From contig CAMDTO010000009.1 of assembly GCA_945907765.1 (NCBI GenBank), positions 1 to 41,708 on the forward strand: a stretch of 41,708 nt of DNA. The letters run 5' to 3'. Origin of the DNA: Thermoflexus hugenholtzii JAD2. GTDB lineage: Bacteria > Chloroflexota > UBA11872 > UBA12225. Shown here piece after piece: positions 3,231 through 14,976 of this stretch. The translations under genes and the position numbers were made by a program. Under the pieces are notes generated by a model, which saw only the letters and a list, made by a program, of their open reading frames with translations, was not told the origin of the DNA and ran no database searches. Within the stretch, counting starts at the first letter, position 1. Each line of letters begins with the position of its first letter.

Positions 3231-4163
3231 CTAGTCAAGTCCGAGAATGTCAAGCGAATCCCGGTGCACCACCTGCATCAATTCATCGACCGGCACACGG
3301 GGCAACGCGGTCCCCTCGAGTAGGTCATTGATGCGCGGGATCGCATCGATTGTCTCCTGTGGGGTAGCAACCGGAAAGTCGCTGCCAAAGAGGAGCTTAT
3401 GCAGGACGGCCCATTCGGTCGCCAAGCGCAATGAGGTCCAATATGACCACGGTCGATAGTGCAGGGCAGAGATGTCCGCCCAGACGTTGGGATGCTTGCG
3501 GATGACCGCGAGAGCGTCGACCTGCCATGGATGTGCGAAATGCGCGAGGATCAGTCGCAGTTTCGGGAATCGCGTGGCGACCCGGTCAAGATGCCTCGGG
3601 TGAGCCCAGTCGAGGTCCGCGAACTGCACCGGACTTGTCCCCTGGTGCAAGAGGATTGGCAATCCCAGTTCCTGCGCGCGGGCAAAGAGCACGGAAGCCT
3701 CGTCACCAAGCGGGTCAAAGTTCTGGTAGTTCGGCCCAAGCTTGATGCCCCGCAAACCGAGGTCGCCAACCGCACGGTCCATCTCTTCCAACAGATGCGG
3801 ATCTCGGGGATGGACGCTCATGAATCCGATCAACTTCTCGGGGTAGGCATGGACAATCGCGGCCGTGGCATCGTTGACCGCCCGAGCTTGTTCGCGCTTC
3901 ACAATCCCATCCTCGGGAAGTCCCGGCGGAAATGGATCTCCATCGGGAGGACCAGCAATATTGAAGACAATCGCGCGGTCCACTGCCTTCATCGCCTCCA
4001 TGTATTCGTCCCAGGTTATTCGAGACGGGTCCGGACGATCAGGGCGCATCGGGGCGTTGGCCATCACTGATGGCGGCGCTGCGTCGGCATCAGCCTTCGT
4101 GCGGTACCGGGGCGTATGCGTGTGCACGTCGATGATCACGGGCAGTCCTCCGTACAACTGCAT
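3231..4163 (-). CDS. Amidohydrolase_2 family metal-dependent hydrolase (ACMSD-like)
   Basis: This 310-residue TIM-barrel hydrolase belongs to the amidohydrolase_2 group, which contains aminocarboxymuconate-semialdehyde decarboxylase and related decarboxylases and hydrolases. Likely metal ligands are His14 and His16 (DVHTHTP), His173 (LLHQGTS), His208 (LAHFAHPW) and Asp262 (FGSDFP). The substrate cannot be predicted. No signal peptide is present, so it should be cytoplasmic. The start at 4163 leaves only a short lead before the first metal motif, as is normal for the family. The gene sits downstream of the exported protein gene at 4251-4907 on the same strand with an 87-bp gap. It converges on the DoxX-like gene across the shared hairpin at 3141-3181. 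Confidence 0.85.
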   Translation of the reverse strand: MQLYGGLPVIIDVHTHTPRYRTKADADAAPPSVMANAPMRPDRPDPSRITWDEYMEAMKAVDRAIVFNIAGPPDGDPFPPGLPEDGIVKREQARAVNDATAAIVHAYPEKLIGFMSVHPRDPHLLEEMDRAVGDLGLRGIKLGPNYQNFDPLGDEASVLFARAQELGLPILLHQGTSPVQFADLDWAHPRHLDRVATRFPKLRLILAHFAHPWQVDALAVIRKHPNVWADISALHYRPWSYWTSLRLATEWAVLHKLLFGSDFPVATPQETIDAIPRINDLLEGTALPRVPVDELMQVVHRDSLDILGLD

Positions 4164-4250: not shown

Positions 4251-4907
4251 TCAATCAGTGGCGGGTTTGTCCCACTCGTCCGGACATGCGCGCCAAAGTG
4301 CCTGCAGTTCCGGGTCAACGTAACCGCCGGGAATTTCCAGATCGCCTGGAGCGAAGGTGTACGCACCTCCGCGGTCCAACGGCGCCTCGATGCTTACAAC
4401 CATCGCTCCAGGTCCCAGGACAGGCTTCAGATATGGCCCAGAGTTCGACCGTTCACCGCCATGTTCGAACCTTCCCCACGGTGATGCCTTCGCAACAAGA
4501 CCACGCGCACTGTCCTCGTCCAACCCGACTGACGTGACCGCCCGGAACCAAAGGTTTCCGTCCCATCGGTCAGCGATCGAGCGATGAGCCCCCTCATGCC
4601 AGATGCGCATGACTGGTTCGAAACCGTTGCATGCATCCACCATCGGGGTGAGAAGCCATAAAGTGATCGCGGTCGACCGGGCAAGCTCCAACGCGTAGAA
4701 ATCGCGCCCCCCCGGGGGAAGGACACCCCGGATGGCACGGGAGACCGTGGGGGCGGGGATGAGGAAAGGCGCCGTCTGGTCAGGCGACCCGGGGTTATGC
4801 ATCGGTTGATGCGCTTCAGCAAACGGCACGTAGATAACGGTCAGCATCACCAGAACGCCCAAGCTCGCGGCCATGGCTAGGCGGGTGTGTCGCTGGATGG
4901 CCCTCAT
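4251..4907 (-). CDS. Exported protein with mature N-terminal His-Gln-Pro
   Basis: This 218-residue secreted protein has a signal peptide (basic N-terminus, hydrophobic 12-30) ending in AEA; cleavage there leaves His33-Gln-Pro-Met-His as the mature N-terminus. The mature part is probably beta-rich, with several Trp residues and two Cys (one near residue 107, one in the ACPDEWD tail), and has no later membrane span. Its first 60 mature residues align loosely with the gene at 742-1602: HQP, a P-x-VS(R/K)A segment, a GG/GRG turn, then a hydrophobic strand ending in TP/VP. The ATG at 4907 is chosen because it opens the signal peptide; the longer frame adds about 95 residues of unlikely sequence. 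No Shine-Dalgarno is evident. Function unknown. Confidence 0.65.
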
Positions 4908-5222
4908 TTCAACAATGCCAAACCTGACCCAACAGGGATGATGAGCGTATCGGAGACCGCTCCCGCGCACGACCACTACCGCGCTCGGCGAGGTAGTCGG
5001 CTTCAATGTATCTGTGTACGAACATGGCGCATTGCGTGTGTCAGCGACAACCGCCGTTCCGACAAACGTATCGGGATTGTAACAGTGATCGTCCCGACGA
5101 GCAGCGTCCCATTGCGACACATCACGCATGAGGCGTTTCGATCCCGTTGCGCCCTGCCTCGGATCGACCAGATGCCATCGCTCACCACACACCCGTACCG
5201 ACGGGCGGTGTACCGTTTAGGC
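4908..5222. other. Divergent intergenic region without a recognisable gene
   Basis: These 315 bp separate the minus-strand exported protein from the plus-strand ABC ATPase. No ORF with protein-like character was found on either strand. The only element I can support is the -10-like TACCGT six bases before the ATPase ATG. Confidence 0.5.
5211..5216 (+). promoter_or_regulatory. Candidate -10 element for a leaderless ABC operon transcript
   Basis: TACCGT fits the TANNNT -10 core and ends six bases before the ATG at 5223, so transcription would begin at or next to the start codon. No Shine-Dalgarno sequence is present upstream of that ATG, which agrees with leaderless translation. No good -35 is visible. 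Confidence 0.4.
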
Positions 5223-6059
5223 ATGTCGATGACACCGGTCGGGGAAGCTGCGACCACCGTGAGGGCGATTACCCCCGGGTCACACCCGTCGCCAGAAACT
5301 GACCACGACTGGATCGTCGAGGCAATCGGGTTAGTAAAGACGTACGCCACCGGACAAGGCGAACCCGATGTTCCCGCTCTCCGGGGGGTTGACTTCCGCG
5401 TACGACGGGGGGAAATGGTCGCGATCATGGGCCCGAGCGGGTGCGGCAAGACGACCCTGCTGAACTGCCTGGCCGGGATCGACGCCATCGATGGTGGCGA
5501 CGTATTCATCAACGGCACGTCACTCTCCCGAATGGACGATGCGACCCTGACGCGATACCGCGCGAAGTCGATGGGCTTTGTGTTCCAGAGTTTCAATTTG
5601 TTGCCGGTGCTCACGGCGGTCGAGAACGTGGAGTTCCCTCTCCTGCTCACTGGGGCACCGCCCGTCGAGGCACGTGGCCGTGCCCGCAACGCACTGCGGG
5701 ACGTCGATCTCTCGGACCGCGAGGCCCATCGGCCTTCACGATTATCGGGTGGACAACAGCAACGGGTGGCAGTCGCACGGGCCATCGTTGCATCACCCGC
5801 GATTGTGTGGGCCGATGAACCGACCGGAAACCTCGACAGCGTGAGTGCCGGACAGCTCATGGCGCTCCTGCGAGAACTGAACCGGACCCGCGGGCAGACG
5901 TTCCTCGTGGTGACGCATGCCCGCGAAGTCGGCCTGCAGTGCGACCGGATCGTCCACATGAAGGACGGCCTGATCCTCCACGAGGAAATCACCGGTGTCC
6001 CCAGTCCGATCAGGAGCGCTCCAGCAGATCCAGGGCGCCATTCTGGATCGGGAAACTAG
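5223..6059 (+). CDS. ABC transporter ATP-binding protein, MacB/LolD type
   Basis: This 278-residue nucleotide-binding subunit powers the adjacent FtsX-type permease. It has a Walker A GPSGCGKT (70-77), a Q-loop in [10 protein letters not shown] (about 119-128), the signature LSGGQQQR (174-181), a Walker B ending in [10 protein letters not shown] (about 197-206) and the switch His in VVTHA. The [10 protein letters not shown] box and the FNLLP Q-loop are characteristic of the LolD/MacB/FtsE branch, which moves substrates at or across the membrane by mechanotransmission instead of importing them. The ATG at 5223 leaves a 30-residue tail before the domain; a longer frame from 4887 is rejected because it would read through the intergenic region. 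The permease starts three bases after the stop, so the two are co-transcribed. Confidence 0.9.
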
Positions 6060-6062
6060 GAC

Positions 6063-9000
6063 TTGGAATCGTTCTTCGGCGTCCCCACCTCCTACCTTGC
6101 CGCGGGTGCGATGGTCGTCCTCGTGGCGGTGCTCGCCGGTCTCGGAACCTTCGCCAGGCGTCGACCCATCCTGCTTTCGCTTGCACTGCGCCAGGTGCCT
6201 CGGAGGCCCGCGCAGTCGGCCCTGATCGTGGTCGGGCTGATGATCTCGACGATCCTGATCACCGCGTCGCTTGCCACTGGTGACACGCTGACCTATTCAC
6301 TCCGCTCCGCCGCGGTCGAGGAAATCGGCAGGTTGGACGTAGTGGTTACCTATAGCAATGTCGCTCGATTAGCGAACCCCGCGGCGATTGCGAACGGGGA
6401 CCCGACATCACAGACTGCGATGTTCCCACGGGCGACATACAACCTACTTCGCGAAGCGCGCACCTCTGATCCGGTCCTCTCGCGCGATGTGACCGGCATC
6501 ATGCCGGCCGTCTGGCTAACCTGCCGGGCGGTCGACCTGCGCAGCAAGCAAGGCGCTGGGGCGGCCATCAGGGGCATCCCCGCTGATTACGACCGTGCCT
6601 TTGGAGACTTGGTAGACGCCACCGGGAAGCCGATTGATCTCGGACGGTTCGCACCCGGTGATGCCGTCCTGAACCGCGCGGGTGCCACCACGCTCGGAGC
6701 CGAGGTCGGCGACGAACTCACCTGTACCGGCTCATCCGGAGCGGTCAGGTTGCGCATCGCTGCGATAGCGAGCGCGGTTGGCCTCGGCACCGGGTCGACG
6801 GTCGCGCTGACCGTCCCTTTGGAGTGGCTTCAGTCGTCCTTGCCGGCAACGCAGGTCCAAGGCGTCCAGGACCCCATCAACCAGATCTGGGTGACGCTGC
6901 GCGGGACGCTCATCACAAGCGCGGAACTCGCGCCTGACGTCGCAACCGCCTTGCGCAGTCGGCTTGTCGATGAGGCTGCGGACAGTGCACTTCGGACGAT
7001 GGTCTCCATGCCCGAGTTCCGTGTCGGCCTCGCGAACCGGCGTCCGAACCTCCAGTTGCGCGTCCAACGTGCCCTAGACGAACTCGATGTGCTTCTCACC
7101 GGCCAGGTGCCGGCCATGCGGAATGCTCCAGGCGCGGGTGAGTTCCCGCTGACGGTGCCGAAGGATTCCAAGGAAGAGCGGGAGCGTCTTGACCGTGTCT
7201 TGCGCGTCGGCGGTGTGCGCGCCGCATTGGTTCAAGCCGCCCGAGACCTCCCCGACCCAGCGCGAGGCCCCGAGATGGAGGTCTTGCTGCAACGCACCAC
7301 TGGGTACCTTGCGCTTCCCATCAAGGAGCAGATCCTCGTCGGTGCGGACCGGGCCGGAAATGTCCTGAGCACCATCTTCCTCCTTTTCTCGCTCCTCTCG
7401 ATTGCTGCCGGTCTCCTCCTCGTTTTCCTGATCTTTGCCTTGCTTGTCGCCTCGCGACGGAGCGAACTCGGCATCACGCGAGCACTCGGAGCGTCGTCAG
7501 GCGACCTCGTTGCCCTGGTCACCATCGAAGGGGTCGCCTACGCCTCACTCGCCACCATCGCTGGCGTGCCCGTAGGACTAGGCGTCAGTCGAATACTGCT
7601 CTCGATACTGGTCTGGGCAGTTGAATCGGGATGGGCCGGGTTCACCGGTTCCGGGGCGCGGGTCGCCGAACTCGCAAAATGGGATGCGGCCCCGCGTAGC
7701 ATCGTTCTCGCCGGTGCGGTGGGTCTCCTGCTCACAATCGCCACGGTCGCAATCGCCGCCTGGCGAGTGACGCGCGTCACCATCGTCACCGCAATCCGCG
7801 ACCTTCCAGACCCACCCCGCCGACGCACGCCACGCCCCATCGCCGCGCAAGCAGAGCACGGGACGGCAGTTCACCTCATGGCCCGCTTGCGTGACGTCGT
7901 TATCGTCGGTTGGCGTCGTTGGGTCGGCCCAATCGGCATCCTCTTGGCGATCTACGGCGGTTACGCCGAACGCGGTATCTGGTTCACGATCGGACTCACG
8001 TTCGTGGGCATCGCCATCGGGTTCCTGGTGCGTGATCGCGCGGCGCAACGTCTTGACCACGACGATGCCCGCCGGCTTGGCTTCTCCGTCAGTGCTACCG
8101 TCGCCGGCATTCTCTGGCTGCTCCCATTCGACTTCCAGACCCTTCTCGGCCTCGCGGCGTTCGACGGCGGGATCGAATACTTTGCCGTTGGCGGGCTCGC
8201 TTCGGTTGCCGCCGTGATGATCGTGACCAGTCTCAACGGCGACCTTGCGCACCGCGCCATTGCATCAGTGCTGACCTCCTTTGGCAGACCCGCGCCGTCG
8301 ATCAGGCTGGCCCTCGCGCACGTGGCGCGCTACCCGTACCGGACCGGAATGACCGCGACGATGTTTGCCGTGGTCGTGTTCATGCTGACCATCATGCAGG
8401 TACTGACTGCCTCGATCTCCGACGCGCAGGGTGACCGGTTGATCGCGTATGGCGGGTTCGGTGTTTCGGGTCAGACTTCGAACCAGACGGTGATCCTGGG
8501 CGCGGCCCCAGTTGATGACCTCGCCATCTCAATTGCCGGCAGTGCAGGCGCAGCCCCGACAGCAACCGCGATCGCCGGAACCAGCGATGCGCCGGCACCG
8601 ATTTCCCCCGAGGACCGGACGCGTGCCGAACGCACCGCACTACTCGGACGCGAACCAACCCGCCTCGCGACGGAAGCGGTTGAGAACCAGACGTTGCGCC
8701 CACTTCTCTCCGGCGCAGGGACACGGGTGACTTCGGCGGTCGCGCTACTGCAACTCTCTGCACCACGCCCCGCGTGGGGTGGGTATGCAGGTGCCGGCAT
8801 CGACGAGGGATTTGCCCGTACCAACGAAGTCAGGCTTGAAAACCGAACATCGTCGTATCCCACCGACAGGGATGCATGGCTTGCGGTCGTGCGCGATCCC
8901 TCGCTCGCGATCGTGGATTCCGGAGTGCTGCCGCGGCCTGAACTTCGCGGACGCACGCCAGGTCTCGGCATGATCGGCTTCGTCCTGAATGGGCTGCCTG

Positions 9001-9737
9001 GTGGGCCAGGCACCATGCTGGCCCAGGATATCTGGGTTGCGAATCCACTCGGTGTCGGCGGTGCCGTTGGTGCGAAGCGGATGACGGTCATCGGTGTGAT
9101 CGACCGCCGCGCATCCTCGAACTTCCGGGGCGTGCACATCTCGATGAATACCCTCCGTGGCCTTGGGCAACCGTTCCGACCTGCCTTGGCACGCTACTAC
9201 TTCAGACTTACGCCTGGCGCGCCTGTCGGAGACGCACGGGCAGCCCTTGGCGAGGCGTTCTTCGCCGACGGACTTCAGACAATCGATCTGGACGAAACTT
9301 TCCGCAACCAGACCGGGCCGGTACTTCTGGGCAGCGGTCTCCTGCAACTCTTCGTGGGGCTGGGACTGATCTCCGGCGTGGCCGCACTTGCGGTGGTTGC
9401 GACACGGTCCACGCTGGAGCGACGCCAACAGATCGGGATGTTGCGGGCCGTCGGCGCGACACGCCACCAGGTCACCATCAGTCTCATTCTGGAAGGGATG
9501 GTCGTCGTCGCCCTGGGCAGCGTATCGGGGACCGTTGTGGGTCTCTGGCTATGCCGGAACGTGTTTGCAGTGCAATTTTTTGATCGCTTCAGTCCCGGAA
9601 GCATCCTGATGGTGATCCCATGGTGGCAACTCCTGGGAACCCTCGCCCTCGCCTCAGGCTTTGCTCTCCTCGCCACCCTCGTGCCGGCGTGGCGTGGGGC
9701 ATCCGTGCCTCCCGTCGCTGCCATCCGGGCGGAGTAG
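6063..9737 (+). CDS. Two-domain FtsX-like ABC permease (1224 residues)
   Basis: This large membrane protein is the partner of the upstream ATPase. After an N-terminal span (about 10-30) and a conserved LRQVPRRPAQSAL-type linker comes a long extracytoplasmic region. A first FtsX permease domain (about 430-585) carries the cytoplasmic SRRSELGITRALGAS motif. Several central spans (about 615-735) follow, then a second start-like motif (RLALAHVARYPYRTGMT, about 755), a second extracytoplasmic region, and a C-terminal FtsX domain (about 1090-1224) with TLERRQQIGMLRAVGAT. The duplicated architecture places it among the 10-span LolCE/BceB-like permeases with large periplasmic modules. Family members export lipoproteins, peptides or macrolides, or control peptidases; the substrate is unknown. 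The start is a TTG at 6063, three bases after the ATPase stop; the first ATG in frame lies inside the first span. Confidence 0.85.
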   Translation: MESFFGVPTSYLAAGAMVVLVAVLAGLGTFARRRPILLSLALRQVPRRPAQSALIVVGLMISTILITASLATGDTLTYSLRSAAVEEIGRLDVVVTYSNVARLANPAAIANGDPTSQTAMFPRATYNLLREARTSDPVLSRDVTGIMPAVWLTCRAVDLRSKQGAGAAIRGIPADYDRAFGDLVDATGKPIDLGRFAPGDAVLNRAGATTLGAEVGDELTCTGSSGAVRLRIAAIASAVGLGTGSTVALTVPLEWLQSSLPATQVQGVQDPINQIWVTLRGTLITSAELAPDVATALRSRLVDEAADSALRTMVSMPEFRVGLANRRPNLQLRVQRALDELDVLLTGQVPAMRNAPGAGEFPLTVPKDSKEERERLDRVLRVGGVRAALVQAARDLPDPARGPEMEVLLQRTTGYLALPIKEQILVGADRAGNVLSTIFLLFSLLSIAAGLLLVFLIFALLVASRRSELGITRALGASSGDLVALVTIEGVAYASLATIAGVPVGLGVSRILLSILVWAVESGWAGFTGSGARVAELAKWDAAPRSIVLAGAVGLLLTIATVAIAAWRVTRVTIVTAIRDLPDPPRRRTPRPIAAQAEHGTAVHLMARLRDVVIVGWRRWVGPIGILLAIYGGYAERGIWFTIGLTFVGIAIGFLVRDRAAQRLDHDDARRLGFSVSATVAGILWLLPFDFQTLLGLAAFDGGIEYFAVGGLASVAAVMIVTSLNGDLAHRAIASVLTSFGRPAPSIRLALAHVARYPYRTGMTATMFAVVVFMLTIMQVLTASISDAQGDRLIAYGGFGVSGQTSNQTVILGAAPVDDLAISIAGSAGAAPTATAIAGTSDAPAPISPEDRTRAERTALLGREPTRLATEAVENQTLRPLLSGAGTRVTSAVALLQLSAPRPAWGGYAGAGIDEGFARTNEVRLENRTSSYPTDRDAWLAVVRDPSLAIVDSGVLPRPELRGRTPGLGMIGFVLNGLPGGPGTMLAQDIWVANPLGVGGAVGAKRMTVIGVIDRRASSNFRGVHISMNTLRGLGQPFRPALARYYFRLTPGAPVGDARAALGEAFFADGLQTIDLDETFRNQTGPVLLGSGLLQLFVGLGLISGVAALAVVATRSTLERRQQIGMLRAVGATRHQVTISLILEGMVVVALGSVSGTVVGLWLCRNVFAVQFFDRFSPGSILMVIPWWQLLGTLALASGFALLATLVPAWRGASVPPVAAIRAE

Positions 9738-11315: not shown

Positions 11316-12518
11316 CTATCCGACAGCGACTTGTCCGGGATTGGCCTTCACCGGCGGCGTGGCACGAACCCGGCCCGGCTGGTCCGTAGCGGGCATCGCC
11401 GAGTGCAGGATCCACGCTCCTGACGCAATCCCACCGGCACCACCGGTACCACCGGGAAGGGCACCATCACGCACGGGACGGTGCAGGCGGAAGGCGAGAG
11501 TGTGGACCGCCAACGGATCCTCGACTCCACCCCCACCCCGTCGCCCCTGATATGAATTCGCTTCGCTTCCACCCCCTCGCCGCTGATCCACTTGCGCCTC
11601 ACCTCCGGATGGCCGGGCAAGATCCGGTGCATTGGTCGCCGATGGGACGCCACGCGCCCGGAGGGTCTGGACACGCAGGGTCAGCCCACCAATCTCACCA
11701 TCGCGCCACTCCCAATGGTGGTCTTCGAGGACCAGCCGGTAACTCGCCGCCGGCCCCAGGACACCAGTCCGTGCCGTGAAGTCGCCAGTCTGCGATGACG
11801 CCCGTCCGCGGGCGCGTCCCGGTCCGGCAAGGACCAGGAGTGCGGTGCCCGTACGTGCCGTCAGGGAGGCGATGGTGCTGGCCGCCGCAAGACCGACCCG
11901 GGCGTCTTCAGGCAATGGGCAGACGATTGCATCGAATGCCTCGCTGCGAAGCATGATGAAGAGGGCATCAAGCACCGCCCGAGTCGTCTCGCGCGGCGTC
12001 GGTCCGGTAGGTGGTCGCACGACGATCACCTGTGTGGGCAGGGCAAGTCCGGCCATCTGCAACGATGGCGGGAAGATCCGGCCGCCGTGATCACCCGGGA
12101 TGTCGACCAGCGCCAGAAGGGTCGGTCGCAGGGCACCGGCCCACGCAAGCGCGAAGGTCAGGCGTCCGCCACCGATCTGCCCCGAAACCTCGAGGACGGG
12201 AGGCACGGTCAAGGCGCGCCCGTCACGGGCTGTCGCACCGGGCCACCACGCTGGCAGGGCGGCACGTGCATCGGCAGTGTCGCTGGTGCCGGGAGTTGGT
12301 CGCAGGAGGTTCGGTGACGCCACGGACGTACCGGCATCCGGTTTGCGGGCATCAAGGTAAACCAGACTCGATGCCCCCCAGCGTTGACGGACATCGTCGA
12401 GGACTCGTGCCAAGGCCTCGCGCGGATTGCCAGACTCCTCCACCCCGCCAGATTGCCCCTGATCCGTATCGGCTTCACTCGCACCGGTCTCCGGTCGCGA
12501 TGGTATCGGGGAGGTCAT
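11316..12518 (-). CDS. RecA/ImuA-like protein with degenerate Walker A
   Basis: This 400-residue protein resembles RecA-fold ImuA/SulA-like proteins: a variable N-terminus, then VLEVSGQIGGGRLTFALAWA (about 108-127) where RecA has its P-loop, a VDIPG strand, FPPSLQMAGL, a QVIVVRPP strand, a long helix TTRAVLDALFIMLRSEAFDAIVC, and later strands. The phosphate-binding Lys and Thr of GxxxxGKT are absent (GQIGGGRL), so ATP binding is doubtful. ImuA proteins help ImuB and DnaE2 in damage-induced mutagenesis; neither partner is in the window. The tail after about 285 is Gly/Pro-rich and not recognisable. The ATG at 12518 is six bases after TATACT, suggesting a leaderless SOS-controlled transcript; a TTG start inside the operator is rejected. 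Family assignment is from fold pattern and motif order, not from a search. Confidence 0.6.
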   Translation of the reverse strand: MTSPIPSRPETGASEADTDQGQSGGVEESGNPREALARVLDDVRQRWGASSLVYLDARKPDAGTSVASPNLLRPTPGTSDTADARAALPAWWPGATARDGRALTVPPVLEVSGQIGGGRLTFALAWAGALRPTLLALVDIPGDHGGRIFPPSLQMAGLALPTQVIVVRPPTGPTPRETTRAVLDALFIMLRSEAFDAIVCPLPEDARVGLAAASTIASLTARTGTALLVLAGPGRARGRASSQTGDFTARTGVLGPAASYRLVLEDHHWEWRDGEIGGLTLRVQTLRARGVPSATNAPDLARPSGGEAQVDQRRGGGSEANSYQGRRGGGGVEDPLAVHTLAFRLHRPVRDGALPGGTGGAGGIASGAWILHSAMPATDQPGRVRATPPVKANPGQVAVG

Positions 12519-12524
12519 GCCATG

Positions 12525-12542
12525 AGTATAGAACAAATGTTC
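12525..12542 (-). promoter_or_regulatory. SOS (LexA) box abutting the -10 of the RecA-like gene
   Basis: GAACATTTGTTC (12531-12542, minus strand) is a perfect GAAC-N4-GTTC palindrome, the core of the Gram-positive-type LexA/DinR box. It is followed without a gap by TATACT (12530-12525), an excellent -10, and the ATG begins six bases later. A bound repressor would block the promoter. Confidence 0.7.
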
Positions 12543-12572: not shown

Positions 12573-13766
12573 TCACCGGAAGAAGCAGGCATCGCCGAAC
12601 GAGTAGAAGCGGTACCGCGCCGCAATCGCGGTCGCGTACGCCTCGCGAACCACGCCTGCACCAGCAAAGGCCGAGACAAGCATCAGCAACGTCGAGCGCG
12701 GGACATGAAAATTGGTCACAAGGGCATCGACAACCTGGAAGTCGACCCCGGGATACAGGAAGATCCGGGTCCATCCCTGCCATCCCGCCTCAGGCAGATT
12801 GGCCCGGGTGCCTCCGAGGGCACGAACCCACGTCTCCAGTGTGCGCACCGCCGTGGTCCCGACGGCGACCACCCGATGGCCATTCCGCCTCGCGTCGGTG
12901 ATGGCACTGGCCGTCGCGCCGGGCACGATGGCATACTCGGCGTGCATTTCGTGGTCAGTAATACGGTCGGCCCGAACCGGACGGAACGTATCGGCACCGA
13001 CGTGCAGGGTGACCGGAACGACCCTGACCCTCCGGTCACGCACCGCGTCCAGCAGGGCCACTGTGAAGTGCAGGCCCGCGGTCGGCGCCGCTGCGGACCC
13101 CGTCTCCTGGGCGTAGACGGTCTGGTACCGGGTCGCATCAGCAAGGTGGGTACCGATATACGGCGGGAGCGGCATCTCGCCGAACCGGTGCAGGACACGG
13201 TCCACCGACGAATCGAACCGGATCAGGACCCCACCGGAAGCCGTTCGTTCCCCGACCTCGACGGTGACCGGACCTTCATCCGACGGCTCCGCACCGGCAA
13301 CGACCAGTTGCATCCCGGGACGGATGCGGTTTGCCGGCCGGACCAGTGCCTCCCACCAGACCGACCACTCACGGCCACTGGTCGACCCGTCGGACACCAC
13401 GGGCGACGAACTGGCTCGTGGGCGCAACAGCAGGAACTCGACCCGGCCACCAGTCGCCCGCACAGCGTGGATGCGCCCGGCAAGAACCCGGCTGTCGTTC
13501 ACCACAAGCACATCGCCCGCTTCAAGCAAGGCGGGGATGTCACGGAACGAATGGTGAGTGACCGACCCGGAGCCCTTGTCGACGACAAGCAGCCTCGTTG
13601 CGTCGCGTGGTTCAAGCGGGGTCTGTGCGATCAGATCGGCTGGCAAATCGAAAGCGAAGTCATCGGTCTGGAGATCCGAATGTGGGCGTGAAGCGTCGAA
13701 GGCGGTTGTGGGAGGTCCAACCTGCACGGACCCAGGGGGCGACGCCGACGGACCGTCCGTCACCAT
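12573..13766 (-). CDS. queA: S-adenosylmethionine:tRNA ribosyltransferase-isomerase QueA
   Basis: QueA transfers and isomerises the ribosyl part of SAM onto preQ1 at the wobble base of GUN-anticodon tRNAs, giving epoxyqueuosine. The 397-residue protein has the usual length plus a short N-terminal extension. Hallmarks are [26 protein letters not shown] (about 35-60), [57 protein letters not shown] and the C-terminal [19 protein letters not shown]. The start overlaps the end of ruvB by seven bases (ATGGTGA), so translation is probably coupled. The ruvC-ruvA-ruvB-queA order is common in bacteria. It is one of three SAM-related genes in the window, though far from metK. Confidence 0.95.
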
Positions 13767-14806
13767 AGCCGGGGTTGGGCGGGTGGCTCGACGCCGCCAG
13801 TTGCGGCCCCGGGATACGGGATACCCAGATGCGCCGCTGCCATCTCCGTCGCAATGCGCCCGCGGGGCGTGCGCTGCAAATACCCTTGCTGGATCAGGTA
13901 CGGTTCGTACACATCCTGAAGCGTGTCCGACTCCTCGCCAACCGTCGCCGCCAAGGTCTCCAAACCGGCCGGACCACCCTTGAACCGCGTCAGGAGAAGC
14001 GTCAGCAGTTGGCGGTCGAGCTCGTCCAGCCCTACATGATCAACCCCAAGGGCATCGAGGGCGTCACGCGCGACGCTCAACGTGATCACTCCATCGGCCA
14101 TGACCTGCGCGTAGTCGCGCACCCGGCGCAGGAGGCGCAAGGCCACGCGGGGCGTGCGCCGGGACCGCCGGGCGATCTCGGATGCCCCAAGATCCTCGAT
14201 CGCAATCTTCATCACCCGGGCCGCCCTGACCAACAGTTTGCGGATCGACTCCAGATCGTAGAACTCCAGCCGGAACTGGAGGCCGAACCGGTCGCGCAAC
14301 GGCGCCGTCAAGAGGGCCGCCCGCGTCGTCGCACCAATCAGGGTGAACCGCTTGAGCGGCAGCCGCAGCACCGATGACATCGCCCCACGCCCCGACACGA
14401 TATCCAGGACGTAATCCTCCATCGCCGGATACAGGGATTCCTCGACAAGGCGGTTCAGGCGGTGAATCTCATCGACGAATACGACGTCACGCGTCCCAAG
14501 TTGGGTCAGGAGGCTTGCAAGCGCACCCTGGTGCTCGACGGCCGGACCGGAAGTCGTCTTGATCTGCACGCCAAGCTCTGCCGCAATGATCCGGGAAAGG
14601 GTCGTCTTTCCCAATCCCGGCGGCCCATGAAGCAGGACGTGATCAAGGGCATCACCGCGTGCACGCGACGCAGCGATCGCAATCGACAACTGGTCCTTGA
14701 TGTTCTCCTGGCCAACGTAGTCGGCAAGGCGTCGCGGACGTACCGAATCGTCATCATCGTCACCCGTCGCGCTGACGATCCGCAGGGGAGGGGTCTCGTC
14801 GGTCAT
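13760..14806 (-). CDS. ruvB: Holliday junction branch-migration ATPase RuvB
   Basis: RuvB is the hexameric AAA+ motor that drives branch migration with RuvA. The 348-residue protein shows [18 protein letters not shown] (about 23-40), Walker A GPPGLGKT, the Walker B FVDEIHRL, sensor 1 [20 protein letters not shown], the arginine finger in that segment, and a C-terminal winged-helix domain ending [16 protein letters not shown]. All key residues are intact. The ATG at 14806 overlaps by four bases (ATGA) with the stop of a candidate 57-codon ORF that fills the gap after ruvA. A promoter-like element containing a LexA-type box lies about 93-121 bp upstream, fitting the classical SOS control of ruvAB. 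Confidence 0.97.
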
Positions 14807-14976
14807 CGTGACACCGTGACAAAGGTCGGCGAGGGTGCGTCAATCAATCGTGCAACGGACGTGCCCGGGAATTCGGTCATGAAAACGAGCCGGCAGCAAC
14901 CATCTCGATCAAATGTTCGCATGTCAAGCGTATCGCCGTCGAATGCAGGCACTTCCGCGCTCTGCGCCCACTTCAC
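14803..14976 (-). CDS. Candidate 57-residue ORF between ruvA and ruvB
   Basis: The frame is open from just after the ruvA stop to a TGA that overlaps the ruvB ATG as ATGA. A GTG at 14976 gives 57 residues, beginning [15 protein letters not shown] and ending SPTFVTVSR. The composition is protein-like, with alternating hydrophobic and polar residues and a CC pair in the middle. No family is recognised. Arguments for it are the ATGA overlap and operon position. Against it, no clear Shine-Dalgarno was seen, and the candidate ruvB promoter and LexA-type box lie within it. A shorter form from the ATG at 14880 (25 residues) would be a leader peptide of that promoter's transcript. Confidence 0.4.
14899..14927 (-). 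promoter_or_regulatory. Candidate SOS-regulated ruvB promoter with LexA-type box
   Basis: On the minus strand, TTGACA (14927-14922) and GATGGT (14904-14899) are 17 bp apart. The spacer carries CGAACATTTGATCG (14919-14906), one mismatch from CGAAC-N4-GTTCG. The same central ATTTG occurs in the box of the RecA-like gene at 12531-12542. It lies inside a candidate small ORF. Confidence 0.5.

Follow-up and report, generated by a model that had tools for sequence, protein, structure and literature searches.

The imuA-imuB-dnaE2 (ImuA'-ImuB-DnaE2) mutasome has been described in Caulobacter, Pseudomonas, and Mycobacterium. LexA controls its three components, an ATPase-dead RecA homologue, the Y-family-like ImuB, and DnaE2, and a system with these same components, predicted to be controlled in the same way, is found here in the Chloroflexota family of Thermoflexus hugenholtzii JAD2. 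Split cassettes are known, with imuA'-imuB in one place and dnaE2 in another in M. tuberculosis (PMC6511836). Here the split is different, falling between imuA and imuB-dnaE2, and imuA is behind queA. The ImuA is also unlike that of the known mutasomes: at 400 aa it is long, its sequence has diverged strongly, and a RecA-like N-terminal helix-strand is retained in its relatives. Chloroflexi are not mentioned in the main text of PMC12926913, in which groups of ImuA are distinguished.

The sequence GAAC-N4-GTTC is the Gram-positive LexA motif (PMC3323433). The boxes described here share their half-sites and spacing with the LexA box of Bacillus and Mycobacterium, but are from a Chloroflexota family, where the commonest form is GNACAWWTGTTC, often fused to TATACT. 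In the literature examined, no experimental SOS data were found for this family. In leaderless bacterial genes, a TANNNT sequence is found approximately 12 bp before the start (PMC3160421).

The imuA promoter

The window analysed is a stretch of 41,708 nucleotides, contig CAMDTO010000009.1 of the T. hugenholtzii genome, referred to here as G000. Seven family genomes carry imuA and were compared; the relatives are Chloroflexi MAG records. The features of interest are:

11316 to 12518, minus strand: imuA, encoding a 400 aa RecA-fold protein, a predicted ATPase-dead mutasome subunit
12516 to 12518, minus strand: ATG start codon of imuA, 12 nt past the first T of TATACT and predicted to be a leaderless start
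12525 to 12530, minus strand: -10 element TATACT, abutting the operator
12531 to 12542, minus strand: predicted LexA operator GAACATTTGTTC, with the best matrix score in the window and conserved in 7 genomes
12573 to 13766, minus strand: queA, directly upstream of imuA
13760 to 14806, minus strand: ruvB
14907 to 14918, minus strand: LexA-like site GAACATTTGATC between ruvA and ruvB, with one mismatch to the LexA box, in a conserved block found in 3 genomes of the genus

Read on the minus strand, the order is GACAGA, GAACATTTGTTC, TATACT, CATGGC, and then ATG ACC TCC CCG. A sequence-only reading of this DNA had described a LexA-type box abutting TATACT, with the ATG six bases further on and no Shine-Dalgarno sequence, and each of these elements is confirmed. 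The GAAC and GTTC half-sites are perfect and the N4 between them (ATTT) is not self-complementary. The gap between TATACT and the ATG is the 6 nt CATGGC, into which no Shine-Dalgarno sequence fits. No good -35 is visible for this promoter. A second ATG, out of frame (12523-12521, minus strand), opens only ATG GCA TGA; this two-codon frame (12523-12515) overlaps the imuA start codon. Three genomes of the genus have it; G004 and G008 do not.

In five genomes (G000, G002, G003, G004, and G008) the imuA ATG is exactly 6 nt past TATACT. The imuB and recX promoters are built in the same way, with start codons 6 or 7 nt past TATACT. This fixed spacing, together with the similar promoters of the other two genes, suggests that the imuA mRNA is very probably leaderless, in agreement with the earlier proposal. 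The 6 nt spacing is absent from imuA of G005 and G007, which may start differently. When compared with the leaderless genes of PMC3160421, the 12 nt distance is identical and the -10 sequence is of the same type; what differs is that the operator abuts the -10 element, which would make this a repressible leaderless promoter. By contrast, lexA and recA of this genome carry a Shine-Dalgarno-like sequence, CAGGAG, suggesting that only some genes follow the leaderless design.

LexA boxes at other genes

The case for damage-inducible expression of imuA had been tied to the presence of matching boxes before lexA and recA in the same genome. Boxes were sought before lexA, recA, and imuB-dnaE2, and were found at all three. 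The lexA gene (G000:C27:3082-3768; TIGR00498, 172 bits against a cut-off of 111) has two, GAACACCTGTTC and GAACATGTGTCC, which are 85 bp and 127 bp ahead of the start of the lexA match, respectively, and both are also kept in G002, G003, G004, and G008. The intact recA (G000:C135) has the box GAACAAATGTAC, also given as ACTTGCGTTCTAGAACAAATGTAC. The recA site, ACTTGCGTTCTAGAACAAATGT(A/C)C, was compared in six genomes belonging to two genera, and its 12 bp box varies at a single base. Ahead of imuB-dnaE2 (C187) the box is GTACAAATGTTC, fused to TATACT, and the arrangement GTACAAATGTTC-TATACT-N7-ATG is present in G000, G002, G003, and G004; the corresponding boxes in G005 and G007 are GTACATTTGTTC and GAACTTTTGTTC, each again fused to TATACT. 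The recA and imuB boxes have one half-site mismatch each. A box is also present at recX in G004 and G008. Having the same site before lexA, recA, and imuB-dnaE2 points to an SOS switch of the usual type, in a lineage that has received little study.

Some other genes have boxes as well. A conserved orphan gene (MQREFIITRQGRDFVLYAGLL...) has the box AAACATATGTTCTATTCT in the T. hugenholtzii genome; in relatives the box is GAACATGTGTTC or GAACATTCGTTC and adjoins TATACT as a fused unit. No such site is present in the promoters of yebC, ruvC, ruvA, queA, and uvrA, and for uvrA there is no box near the predicted start.

Shortly before the start of gyrB there is a LexA-type box in both G000 and G005 (L163 1793-1810 and L165 1048-1065); gyrase under SOS control would be unusual. 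A family-wide protein with no Pfam match (MQREFIITRQGRDFVLYAGLLDAAHRDGL...) has a LexA box before its gene in several genomes, and in many cases the box is fused to TATACT (L191 at G000:C2:39270, L131 with its box at 3393, L189, L190, and L197), with several paralogues in G005. It is a candidate new SOS gene. The sequence GAACTT(G/A)TGTTCTATACT is kept in G000 and G003 (L162 1668 and L168 2335), where it adjoins a divergent MatE-type efflux gene and points away from it, into a stretch without a clear gene. Boxes at C3:37088, C108, and C126 were discarded as chance occurrences, their positions being inside coding frames.

Specificity of the imuA box

It might be supposed that the imuA box is a chance GAAC-N4-GTTC palindrome within a promoter and that imuA is outside SOS control. 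The 3.3 Mb genome shows no enrichment of the bare core, with 116 copies against 117 for the reversed pattern, therefore the 8-base core by itself proves nothing. The window has three copies of GAACN4GTTC where 0.78 are expected, a count reached by 5 of 100 shuffles, and the two copies other than that of imuA are at different places, unconnected with repair genes. However, a LexA matrix trained on the lexA, recA, imuB, recX, and gyrB sites, all of which have the same box, and with imuA excluded, gives the imuA site a score of 21.1, the highest in the window. The runner-up, before ruvB, scores 15.2, and no score as high as 21.1 was found in 2.5 Mb of simulated second-order random sequence. Fused to TATACT, the box has 53 matches in nine genomes, against 3 for the reversed control. 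In an alignment of the promoters, GAA(C/T)-N4-GTTC-TATA(C/G)T is the sole block kept upstream of imuA in 7 of 7 family genomes, though the flanks vary. Against this evidence a chance palindrome is extremely improbable, and the regulon, the matrix, and the conservation support the prediction that the imuA promoter box is a LexA site.

A true LexA site could still contribute little if imuA were transcribed mostly by read-through from the yebC/ruvCAB-queA operon, its own promoter being minor. The gene begins 54 nt past queA on the same strand, and ruvB has a LexA-like site of its own, by which ruvB, and perhaps queA too, may be SOS-regulated. On the other hand, the imuA -10 element and operator are kept even in G005, where the gene upstream is not queA, and the spacing of the imuA start fits a leaderless start. 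Control from imuA's own LexA-repressed promoter is preferred, and read-through as the main source of transcripts is considered unlikely.

Identity of the imuA product

The window ImuA (P0001) has no Pfam or NCBIfam match, even at E 1. When a profile made from it and its orthologues was compared with the PDB sequences, RecA chains were the best matches, the low E-values being those of fused multi-copy RecA constructs and single RecA chains having E-values of 0.04 to 1.4. A Foldseek search with the ImuA model likewise returned RecA in all of the best 50 matches listed (E 1e-9 to 2e-6), with TM-scores of 0.3-0.4 and a model that is partly disordered and modest in confidence (pLDDT 55 on average and 70-90 in the core). 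The Walker A sequence is GxxGxG[RQ]LT in 7 of 7 ImuA, as against GPESSGKTT in RecA, such that the lysine has become R or Q. The intact Walker A motif GPESSGKT of a RecA recombinase is lacking in the imuA product. ImuA of groups 1 and 2 lack Walker motifs and those of group 3 have them (PMC12926913), thus replacement of the lysine in all seven is as expected for ImuA1 or ImuA2.

The absence of a curated family match for the window protein itself leaves room for some other degenerate member of the RecA superfamily, such as a decayed RecA paralogue or a SulA- or RadA-like protein, SOS-induced by coincidence. Retention of a RecA-like N-terminal helix-strand, which is reported to be typical of RecA and not of its homologues (PMC6511836), could be read in the same way. 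However, the profile matches annotated ImuA (P 7.5e-5) better than RecA (P 0.0012), where the comparison set is the ImuA-position proteins of plasmid imuA-imuB-dnaE2 cassettes. The G005 orthologue matches the NCBIfam ImuA model NF033429 at E 3.8e-5, short of the curated cut-off, and RecA at 4.9e-7. In addition, the G005 and G007 orthologues share one stretch with imuB and dnaE2, and an intact recA is present elsewhere in the genome. A different RecA-superfamily protein is therefore quite improbable. The suggestion of a RecA/ImuA-like gene can be narrowed to ImuA, an identification supported by the predicted RecA fold, the loss of the Walker A lysine and with it the ATPase motif, and the synteny with imuB-dnaE2 in relatives.

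The N-terminal match to RecA is not significant for the window ImuA alone, being reached by 253 of 1000 shuffles (319 of 1000 for its own ImuB). It is significant for the orthologues in G007 (1 of 1000) and G005 (0 of 1000). Mimicry of this helix, sought by comparing ImuB with ImuA, was not significant (114 of 2000). The ImuB N-termini read RI(A/G)CVW(L/W)PR(F/L)GL where active Y-family polymerases have the catalytic aspartate. It is conceivable, if rather doubtful, that the ImuA found here forms a separate branch that has lost the ATPase and kept a RecA-type N-terminal oligomerisation helix, that it could therefore join itself or RecA filaments besides docking onto ImuB, and that within the genus the twin LexA-fused leaderless promoters are all that coordinates it with the distant imuB-dnaE2.

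Organisation of the cassette

The imuA gene had been noted to lie apart from imuB and dnaE2. This is true of its own genome, where imuA is behind ruvB-queA; imuB-dnaE2 is on another contig there, as it is in G002, G003, and G004. G007 has the arrangement queA-imuA-(membrane-type protein)-imuB-dnaE2, spanning approximately 11 kb, and in G005 imuA, imuB, and dnaE2 are likewise in one stretch. The protein encoded between imuA and imuB in G007 is an unrelated membrane-type protein of 554 aa with no Pfam match (L122 7326-8987). Two large neighbouring open reading frames in the window, 4887-6059 and 6063-9737, were considered as imuB and dnaE2, but encode an ABC ATPase and a permease of the FtsX type.

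As imuA is encoded apart from imuB-dnaE2, their near-identical promoters, each with LexA box, -10 element, and predicted leaderless start, would keep them co-induced.

Proposed regulation and implications

It is very likely that the operator abutting the imuA -10 element is blocked by LexA and opened by DNA damage, giving a leaderless mRNA and an ImuA that aids the mutasome. From what is known of LexA, the repressor bound to its operator would cover approximately -24 to -13 and exclude RNA polymerase. Following damage, RecA filaments would form and bring about self-cleavage of LexA, opening the imuA promoter. Judging by the spacing, transcription would begin at or beside the start codon, this being the 5' end of the mRNA. 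The ImuA produced, RecA-like and with no working ATPase, would dock onto ImuB and in so doing help the error-prone polymerase DnaE2. By analogy with known mutasome biology, ImuA, ImuB, and DnaE2 made together would carry out error-prone bypass.

The system is known in kind. Added here are the evidence for the regulon, the finding that the cassette is split in this genome and contiguous in relatives, the conserved arrangement of LexA box, -10 element, and predicted leaderless start, and the conserved LexA-like site of ruvB. For this Chloroflexota family, comparison of the genomes defines the SOS box and some of the genes of the SOS regulon, and reveals a set of predicted inducible-mutagenesis genes. 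It also provides a clear case in which probable leaderless promoters incorporate a predicted repressor site. The ImuA sequence is between RecA and the known ImuA groups, and could help to reconstruct the origin of this mutasome subunit.
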